This document shows positions 29,807-31,850 of a DNA stretch of 64,000 nt, piece by piece. Origin of the DNA: Cupriavidus basilensis (lineage in GTDB: Bacteria; Pseudomonadota; Gammaproteobacteria; Burkholderiales; Burkholderiaceae). The notes beneath the pieces were generated by a model. That model saw only the letters and a program-made list of their open reading frames with translations, did not search any database and was not told the origin of the DNA. The stretch spans positions 558,001 to 622,000 of the forward strand of contig NZ_CP010536.1 of assembly GCF_000832305.1 (NCBI RefSeq), in the 5' to 3' direction. The position numbers and the translations under genes were made by a program. Positions within the stretch are counted from its first letter, which is position 1. Each line of letters begins with the position of its first letter.

Positions 29807-30150
29807 GCAAAGCAGGCCAGACAATCGCTGCTTGCACCCTCGTGGTGCAAGGGGAGGAAAGTCCGGACTCCATAGGGCAGGGTGTTGGCTAATAGCCATC
29901 CACGGCAACGTGCGGAATAGGGCCACAGAGACGAGTCTTGCCATCGGGTTCGCCCGATGGGAAGGGTGAAACGCGGTAACCTCCACCTGGAGCAATCCCA
30001 AATAGGCAGGCATTGAGGCGGCCCGCTGAGCCTGCGGGTAGGGAGCTTGAGCCGGTCGGTAACGATCGGCCTAGAGGAATGATTGTCACGTGCCGGTAAC
30101 CGCAAGGAAGCCGGCGCGCACAGAATCCGGCTTATCGGCCTGCTTTGCTT
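29807..30150 (+). ncRNA. rnpB: RNase P RNA, bacterial class A
   Basis: This is the catalytic RNA that matures tRNA 5' ends. The universally conserved 5' block GAGGAAAGTCCGGACTCC lies near 29855-29872, GAGGAATGATTGTCAC near 30073-30088, and ACAGAATCCGGCTTAT near 30120-30135. The closing helix P1 is formed by 29807-29818 (GCAAAGCAGGCC) and 30137-30148 (GGCCTGCTTTGC). Ends are set from P1, so they may be off by several bases. No clear intrinsic terminator follows. Confidence 0.96.
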
Positions 30151-30916: not shown

Positions 30917-30944
30917 TTGCGCTGGGAGAGCGCTCATGTATAAT
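30917..30944 (+). promoter_or_regulatory. candidate sigma-70 promoter of a small RNA
   Basis: TTGCGC at 30917-30922 and a perfect TATAAT at 30939-30944 are 16 bp apart. The nearest strong terminator downstream ends at 31118, before any ribosome-binding site, so the promoter would drive a short transcript and not rplM. Confidence 0.6.
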
Positions 30945-30950
30945 TTCCAT

Positions 30951-31118
30951 CATTGAACGACGGCGCACAACACGGCGCAGAGTGCGAAAGCGAATCGGAT
31001 GGTTTCAGCCACATTCGCCGGCCCGCACCGCGATCCAGCCCCGTCGATCTCCCGGTGTCTCCTCCACCCTCCTCCTTTGGTGGATTCAAACCCAAGCTCA
31101 ATAGCTTGGGTTTTTTTT
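30951..31118 (+). ncRNA. candidate small RNA with anti-Shine-Dalgarno loop
   Basis: A transcript of about 168 nt is predicted from the promoter at 30917-30944 to the terminator at 31091-31118. A 6-bp hairpin (TCCACC 31063-31068 with GGTGGA 31079-31084) presents CTCCTCCTTT in its loop, and a second CTCCTCC lies at 31059-31065. These are complementary to Shine-Dalgarno sequences, as in the loop-exposed CCUCCUCC motifs of some alphaproteobacterial trans-acting sRNAs. The T8 tail fits an Hfq-dependent RNA. There is no convincing reading frame. The identity and targets are unknown; this is a prediction. Confidence 0.55.
31091..31118 (+). terminator. intrinsic terminator upstream of rplM
   Basis: An 8-bp stem (31091-31098 with 31103-31110) closes a CAAT loop and is followed by eight T residues. 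It is a textbook Rho-independent terminator with no annotated gene immediately before it. Confidence 0.93.
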
Positions 31119-31253
31119 ATTCTGCGCCTGCCAGACCCGATGCGCATCCTGCTGAAAAGTGCTTCATGGGTTTCTTTTGTGCTGCTTACTGCCATTCTGG
31201 ATGGCGAGCAGCATACGGTGCGGCACCATCTTGGCGTTCTCCCCCAACTTTCC

Positions 31254-31283
31254 TTGTGCTCAGGCCTCAGTCCGCAGTATACT
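31254..31283 (+). promoter_or_regulatory. candidate promoter of the rplM-rpsI operon
   Basis: TTGTGC at 31254-31259 and TATACT at 31278-31283 are separated by 18 bp. Transcription would start near 31290 and give a leader of about 130 nt before rplM, containing a small hairpin (CCTGC 31328-31332 with GCAGG 31341-31345). Confidence 0.6.
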
Positions 31284-31421: not shown

Positions 31422-31850
31422 ATGAAGACCTTTTCCGCAAAGCCTGCAGAGGTTAAGCGCGACTGGTACGTGATTGACGCGACGGACAAAGTCCTCGGCC
31501 GTGTTGCCAGCGAAGTGGCACGCCGACTGCGCGGCAAGCACAAGCCGGAATTTACTCCGCACGTCGACACGGGTGATTACATCATCATCGTCAACGCAGG
31601 CAAGCTGCGTGTCACGGGTACCAAAGAAACCGACAAGAAGTACTATCGTCACTCGGGTTACCCGGGCGGCATTTACGAAACGACGTTCGGTAAGATGCAG
31701 CAACGTTTCCCGGGCCGCGCCCTGGAAAAAGCTGTGAAGGGCATGTTGCCGAAGGGCCCGCTGGGCTATGCGATGATCAAGAAGCTGAAGGTTTACGCCG
31801 AAGCCGAGCATCCGCATGAAGCGCAGCAGCCTAAAGCGCTGGAAATCTAA
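31422..31850 (+). CDS. rplM: 50S ribosomal protein L13
   Basis: A 142-aa ribosomal protein of the large subunit. [48 protein letters not shown] and [19 protein letters not shown] are diagnostic of L13. It is cotranscribed with rpsI, 11 bp downstream, the order conserved across bacteria. Confidence 0.98.

Follow-up and report, generated by a model that had tools for sequence, protein, structure and literature searches.

The closest described relatives of the RNA examined here belong to Rfam family RF02278 (Betaproteobacteria_toxic_sRNA). In Burkholderia cenocepacia, these molecules are called double-hairpin RNAs and members have been seen by dRNA-seq; the "toxic" in the family name derives from the inhibition of E. 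coli growth by family members (PMC5688073). Those described in strain J2315 are ncS03, ncS05, ncS27, and ncS62. Overexpression of ncS27 attenuates growth (PMC5688073), and the target classes given for it are amino-acid and carbohydrate transport and metabolism (PMC5688073 and a review). Its gene is flanked by BCAL3348a and BCAL3349. It is encoded on the opposite strand from BCAL3349, the product of which has 140 aa after re-annotation of the start. We take BCAL3348 to be rplM and BCAL3349 to be osmC.

The RNA S17 of Bordetella pertussis is described as a close relative of one of the known members. It is produced as a 190-nt precursor that RNase E cuts at GU|GU to yield a 67-nt form, and it is Hfq-dependent (PMC11722255). 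In a reporter assay, S17 directly represses BP2158; the same report describes no effect on fusions to BP0442 and BP1445 and none of the long form on two others (PMC11722255). Table 1 of that report has 11 S17 targets, 9 of which are predicted to be bound by the 5' segment, and the candidate targets include solute-binding proteins, transporters, and a fatty-acid ligase (PMC11722255). Additional RF02278 members, Hsnc059, 063, 086, and 107, are described for Herbaspirillum seropedicae from a study of prediction and expression. Outside this family, the Neisseria sibling sRNAs NmsRA and NmsRB are described as acting under RelA to lower TCA-cycle enzymes via an anti-Shine-Dalgarno sequence. Alphaproteobacterial RNAs of the CcsR/cuckoo type expose CCUCCUCC in a loop.

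Members of the genus Cupriavidus are employed in bioplastics production and in the remediation of metals. In a 64-kb stretch of Cupriavidus basilensis DNA (hereafter the window, whose numbering is used throughout), an original prediction made from the letters alone proposed a small RNA upstream of rplM with its own promoter and terminator that exposes an anti-Shine-Dalgarno sequence. Our analysis supports this proposal. When the whole window was scanned with Rfam 15, two matches exceeded their cut-offs, namely RNase P RNA and RF02278. The latter spans 31056-31119 on the plus strand and covers model positions 1-64 of 64, with 69.9 bits against a cut-off of 50 and an E value of 4.7e-12. Further traits of the family are present as well: the fold and a terminator scan reveal two hairpins, the second of which is an intrinsic terminator with a U-tail, and the fold and site counts reveal unpaired CU-rich segments that are complementary to ribosome-binding sites. 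All other Rfam families that were scanned score below their cut-offs at this position. RF02837 (anti-hemB) reaches 26.4 bits against a cut-off of 49.5, and RF02877 (NmsRb), which likewise has an anti-Shine-Dalgarno sequence and to which the RNA is weakly similar, reaches 31.4 bits against a cut-off of 52; membership in either family was rejected on these scores. No tRNA was found between 29000 and 34000. The likeness to alphaproteobacterial RNAs noted in the original prediction holds for the loop-exposed CCUCCUCC motif, but it is a remote analogy with no Rfam match among the families scanned, and the betaproteobacterial relatives are nearer.

The stretch 30951-31118 is a genuine sRNA gene that is conserved and falls into a family known before, and the RNA itself is no new discovery. 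The original prediction had rated such an RNA as notable for the genus, but novelty is not supported: family members have been published for Burkholderia and Herbaspirillum, Bordetella has a relative, and the locus resembles that of ncS27. We hold with high confidence that the RNA is a trans-acting regulator from the double-hairpin family RF02278 that apparently corresponds to ncS27 in Cupriavidus; it would be cut from a precursor and repress its targets at their ribosome-binding sites. Family membership, the conserved promoter, the fold, the locus, and the complementary sites were computed here. What this adds is a position for the sRNA, known and conserved as it is, in a large Cupriavidus genome, together with concrete candidate targets. 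The features of the locus are collected in Table 1.

Table 1. Features of the sRNA locus and its neighbors, in window coordinates
Feature	Positions	Strand	Basis or remark
RNase P RNA, upstream neighbor	29809..30150	+	RF00010
OsmC-family gene, divergent neighbor, 140 aa	30234..30656	-	PF02566
-35-like hexamer TTGCGC	30917..30922	+	16 nt before -10; weak; TTGC invariant in 30 aligned same-genus copies
-10 box TATAAT	30939..30944	+	in window and 57/57 same-genus copies
Predicted long form, ~168 nt	30951..31118	+	start inferred from -10 box
Predicted 5' leader of long form, ~105 nt, which processing would remove	30951..31055	+	start inferred from -10 box
Leader helix, 5' arm CGACGG	30958..30963	+	pairs with 31041-31046
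Leader helix, 3' arm CCGTCG	31041..31046	+	pairs with 30958-30963
GU|GU, candidate RNase E cut	31055..31058	+	analogy with S17
Predicted short form, ~63 nt	31056..31118	+	RF02278 match and fold
Site 1, UGUCUCCUCC, single-stranded 5' seed, last 3 nt within stem	31056..31065	+	fold
First hairpin, stem TCCACC/GGTGGA (31063-31068/31079-31084), loop CTCCTCCTTT 31069-31078 = site 2	31063..31084	+	fold
Intrinsic terminator, 11-bp stem 31088-31098/31103-31113, T8 31111-31118	31088..31118	+	terminator scan
rplM, downstream neighbor (then rpsI)	31422..31850	+	PF00572

The TATAAT box, the T8 terminator, the 6-bp stem, and the second CTCCTCC were all found by direct reading where the original prediction had placed them. 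This second CTCCTCC occupies 31059-31065 and shares 3 nt with the 5' arm of the first hairpin. CTCCTCC is not in excess of chance in the window (5 occurrences versus 7.1 expected) and was set aside as an enriched motif; the unusual feature is that the motif recurs at a distance of 10 nt within a hairpin context that is conserved. Folding of the 63-nt 3' part gives -23.6 kcal/mol (z = -5.58, equaled by 0 of 200 shuffles), and the full 168 nt give -56.0 kcal/mol (z = -2.43, equaled by 3 of 200). A generic promoter scan does not list the sRNA promoter because its -35 box is too weak, and the one terminator reported by the generic scan is no excess over shuffled sequence (mean 1.1). A TATACT box at 31278-31283, noticed by eye, is a possible separate promoter for rplM.

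Conservation of the promoter and of the CTCCTCC loop in relatives had been named beforehand as a test of the prediction, and the copies examined within the genus (57 for the promoter box, 30 in alignment) do not refute it. RF02278 is present at E <=0.001 in 60 of 60 Cupriavidus genomes, and the match is above the cut-off in 58 (own genome included). The 57 copies compared are the best match of each genome, with the exception of the genome that holds the window, one that is 54% complete, and one that yielded only another copy (L064). The osmC gene is upstream in all 57, and rplM falls within the fetched stretch in 55; one of the two stretches without rplM stops at a contig end. An alignment of 30 copies shows no variation in the TTGC and TATAAT elements, in the core hairpin, or in much of the terminator. 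A search of named genomes for the exact 43-nt core returned 33 stretches, all from Cupriavidus, Ralstonia, or unclassified Burkholderiaceae.

The comparison with relatives, made from their published descriptions, suggests how the RNA would be produced and act. Like ncS27, it belongs to RF02278 and has CU-rich unpaired regions and a predicted two-hairpin short form; in ncS27, the short form results from processing. Like S17, it would proceed from a long precursor to a short form, with predicted pairing to ribosome-binding sites via the 5' end (Site 1) or the loop (Site 2). That the window RNA is transcribed and processed, that it uses Hfq, that it represses, and what role it has in physiology are all deduced from these relatives. 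A sigma-70-type promoter at 30917-30944 would drive synthesis of an RNA of ~168 nt that ends at the terminator (31118), and this precursor is probably cut near 31056, as S17 is, to leave a stable form of ~63 nt. Both the promoter and the GU|GU are present in the window and conserved in same-genus copies, and the latter is located just 3' of the leader helix and just 5' of the free seed. The original prediction had a single 168-nt RNA, whereas S17 and ncS27 are cut to a short one.

At its free 5' end, the short form would expose UGUCUCCU, and its loop would expose CUCCUCCUUU. With Hfq, the short form would base-pair with mRNAs that encode nutrient receptors, transporters, and enzymes of catabolism at their Shine-Dalgarno region, and the block of ribosome binding would lower uptake and metabolism under nutrient shortage. 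The sRNA probably silences genes for nutrient uptake and breakdown by covering their ribosome-binding sites, an action that is supported by the relatives and by complementarity and is in line with the target classes of ncS27 and S17. The free 5' end, UGUCUCCUCC, is likely the seed to a greater extent than the loop. The original prediction named the exposed loop, but the single-stranded 5' segment matters too, as it is the predicted S17 site for 9 of 11 targets. The main contrary result comes from Cupriavidus metallidurans CH34: a start-site study that contrasted copper-exposed with control cells reports no detection of the sRNAs described in B. cenocepacia and B. pertussis (PMC7563307).

Because the window itself contains no AGGAGACA-ATG site, complementary sites were sought genome-wide. 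The complement of the 10-nt 5' site, in the arrangement GGAGGAGACA-N2-9-ATG, occurs seven times in the genome. These sites precede four TctC genes (in one of which an ATG earlier than the matched one was used) and one gene each for a solute-binding protein, an acyl-CoA dehydrogenase, and an AMP-binding acyl-CoA synthetase. The 8-nt complement, AGGAGACA-N2-7-ATG, occurs 197 times versus 2 for the reversed pattern. Of the 100 listed places among these 197, 15 are followed by a TctC gene; the corresponding binomial p (1.7e-9) is overstated, as it assumes 2% TctC genes (~150 of a guessed 7,600) and independent paralogues. TctC genes number at least 150 in the genome, where 170 candidates were found and 150 of them scored. 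By Pfam names, the first 30 AGGAGACA places by position, which overlap partly with the seven GGAGGAGACA genes, precede 15 transport genes (5 TctC) and 15 genes for enzymes or their subunits, mostly catabolic.

A broader motif, GGAGGAG-N5-12-ATG, occurs 102 times. ACA directly follows GGAGGAG in 7 of the 102 (p = 0.001 versus 1/64), but this excess is weak proof alone, as A-rich spacers after a Shine-Dalgarno sequence may be common. As controls, 30 sites were fetched from the 100 places listed among the 102 (A or T next, spacer of 5-8, non-ACA, minus one at a contig end), and 23 were scanned after 7 with an ORF of <90 aa had been dropped. Transporters or porins account for 11 of these 23 control genes, so enrichment of the transport class as a whole was discarded as evidence. 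TctC genes account for 3 of the 23; all three have GGAGGAGAC, and 0 of the 16 controls without GGAGGAGAC are TctC genes. TctC nutrient receptors are over-represented among the genes preceded by AGGAGACA. However, AGGAGACA may simply be the favored ribosome-binding site of this lineage, and TctC paralogues could share leaders by descent. Candidate targets are TctC receptors, acyl-CoA enzymes, xanthine/uracil-type permeases, and a 2-oxoacid dehydrogenase.

The same sites bear on whether the RNA has a defined target set at all. It could instead be a general titrator that mimics the anti-Shine-Dalgarno tail, attaches to strong ribosome-binding sites of every kind, and thereby slows translation globally. 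The loop CTCCTCCTTT does include CCTCCTTT, which we take to be the 3' tail of 16S rRNA. The growth inhibition in E. coli that gave the family its name (PMC5688073) also speaks for it. Yet complementarity to the 5' site reaches beyond the Shine-Dalgarno core, and its extent is not the same in all gene classes. GAGAC is present within 22 nt before the predicted start in 21 of 30 TctC genes, 8 of 30 porin genes, and 3 of 30 LysR genes (Fisher p of 0.0017 for TctC versus porins and 3e-6 for TctC versus LysR), where the 30 genes per class are the best scorers rather than a random draw and the starts were predicted by a script that prefers good Shine-Dalgarno sequences. This difference exists although the porins have stronger Shine-Dalgarno sites on average; those of the LysR genes are weaker overall. 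Strands were entered by hand and checked by open frame, and the one porin that failed (L276, with an internal stop) was kept in the count. This gene (G000:C2:146678-147682) has one in-frame TAG and is possibly a decayed copy. Furthermore, S17 overexpression is reported to leave exponential growth of E. coli BL21 unimpaired, and ~90 genes rise in its absence (PMC11722255). We therefore judge general titration to be improbable, and repression of a defined set of mRNAs by a trans-acting RF02278 member is the reading that we retain.

Beyond the genus, in the taxonomic family, RF02278 matches are present in 107 of 120 genomes at E <=0.001 (104 above the cut-off; 10 of the 120 are from Cupriavidus), and rplM is present in 119. 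We searched 1.6 kb upstream of rplM in a hand-picked sample of 60 of the 109 rplM-bearing genomes from other genera, which covers 22 of 24 such genera. A match at E <=0.001 was found in 48 of these 60 (18/20, 14/20, and 16/20), 46 of them above the cut-off. All 48 copies are on the strand of rplM, and a divergent osmC is on the far side in 47. By script, a -10 box with at least 5 of 6 matches and an upstream TTG accompanies 42 of the 48. RNase P RNA, whole or partial, is found in 39 of the 60 stretches, with one further small fragment. Two of the 12 genomes without a match there have a listed copy farther upstream of rplM, at 3.8 and 7.5 kb. Three stretches (L090, L094, and L114) have osmC upstream of rplM and no RF02278 match within 1.6 kb, and these are possible losses or divergent copies. 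Two copies upstream of rplM in genus g15 (L095 and L096) have a much enlarged first hairpin and score 41-43 bits, below the Rfam cut-off. At the level of the order, matches are present in 99 of 150 genomes (59 above the cut-off), whereas none was found in 14 control genomes.

The window locus is apparently the ncS27 locus, as judged by the same divergent gene order and the 140-aa product that OsmC in the window shares with re-annotated BCAL3349. The locus of S17, in contrast, adjoins coq7. Given the shared strand and the conserved adjacency to rplM, the RNA could be read as a cis element, either an attenuated leader or a long 5' UTR of the rplM-rpsI operon involved in L13 autoregulation. We regard this possibility as very remote. 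The terminator closes the RNA 303 nt before rplM, the gap between the two varies from 148 to 923 nt in the 48 family copies, and the genome has other RF02278 copies and one rplM. The relatives are described as stand-alone sRNAs with their own starts, and the adjacency to osmC (47/48) is equally conserved, which points to conservation of the locus.

The trans-acting RNA of the window differs from ncS27 in its leader, which is ~105 nt compared with ~30 nt for ncS27 (92 nt in all, an inferred length). By script, leaders are 63-120 nt in Cupriavidus. Data were available for 17 other genera, 12 of which have leaders of 26-37 nt, and longer ones occur in g4, g12, g15, g24, and one g21 copy. The leaders closest by eye to that of the window are L027, L028, and L043. 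The fold places a further hairpin upstream of the Rfam core, with the outer helix CGACGG/CCGTCG, which suggests that the Rfam model omits an upstream leader hairpin. This helix was also computed here, and its support is weaker than that for the fold, promoter, and locus. Among the 30 aligned copies, 3 of 12 predicted leader pairs in the genus, including 2 of 6 in the outer helix, have two-sided changes that retain pairing; covariation is modest (covariation term of -0.95 kcal/mol). For comparison, two terminator pairs have two-sided changes, and the first-hairpin stem is invariant in 30 of 30 and hence gives no covariation signal either way. When 19 leaders from six other genera are compared, most positions of the helix show more than one or two types of pair, although the helix was fitted by script and the result is biased toward it. 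In an arm-swap test with 94 of 100 leaders (six of <30 nt were dropped, and six of the 48 family copies that have no rule-defined -10 box were unused), exchange of arms between genera weakens the pairing relative to matched arms in Cupriavidus and 12 of 15 other genera; in g9, g16, and g24, matched arms are no better than swapped ones.

That this leader encodes a small peptide, making the RNA dual-function, is scarcely credible: a possible 32-residue ORF is described for the S17 long form, S17L (PMC11722255), and the window leader is open from a TTG at 30953, but the spacing between the conserved start of the leader and the core is spread over all three frames (18, 17, and 23 of 58 copies), most other genera have the short leaders given above, and none of the four ORFs of at least 60 aa over the stretch (70, 81, 111, and 126 aa) has a Pfam match. 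The coding reading was therefore rejected, in agreement with the original prediction that the stretch has no credible reading frame.

The genome carries five further RF02278 matches at E <=0.001, two of them above the cut-off, in addition to the trans-acting RNA of the window. Among four own-genome copies that were read (L004 and L006 fell outside the script), only the window copy has CTCCTCC in the hairpin loop. We offer the tentative idea, which we consider possible but would not favor, that the Cupriavidus ribosome-binding site serves as an address. Genes for uptake and catabolism, above all TctC genes, would share AGGAGACA, the exact complement of the free 5' end, and the RNA and its paralogues could lower carbon and nitrogen uptake en bloc. 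RNA pairing would then fill the role that Crc-Hfq has in pseudomonads. This copy would perhaps be the strongest, because it alone among the four read has a second anti-Shine-Dalgarno loop. The family may be split into one-site and two-site RNAs. Three paralogues (L002, L003, and L005) keep TGTCTCCTCC, and their hairpin loops differ and have no CTCCTCC. One of these, L005, is a weak RF02278-like copy (G000:C2:3502093-3502155, 35.8 bits) that ends ~140 nt away from where the TctC domain encoded by a convergent gene ends (C2:3502293-3503111).
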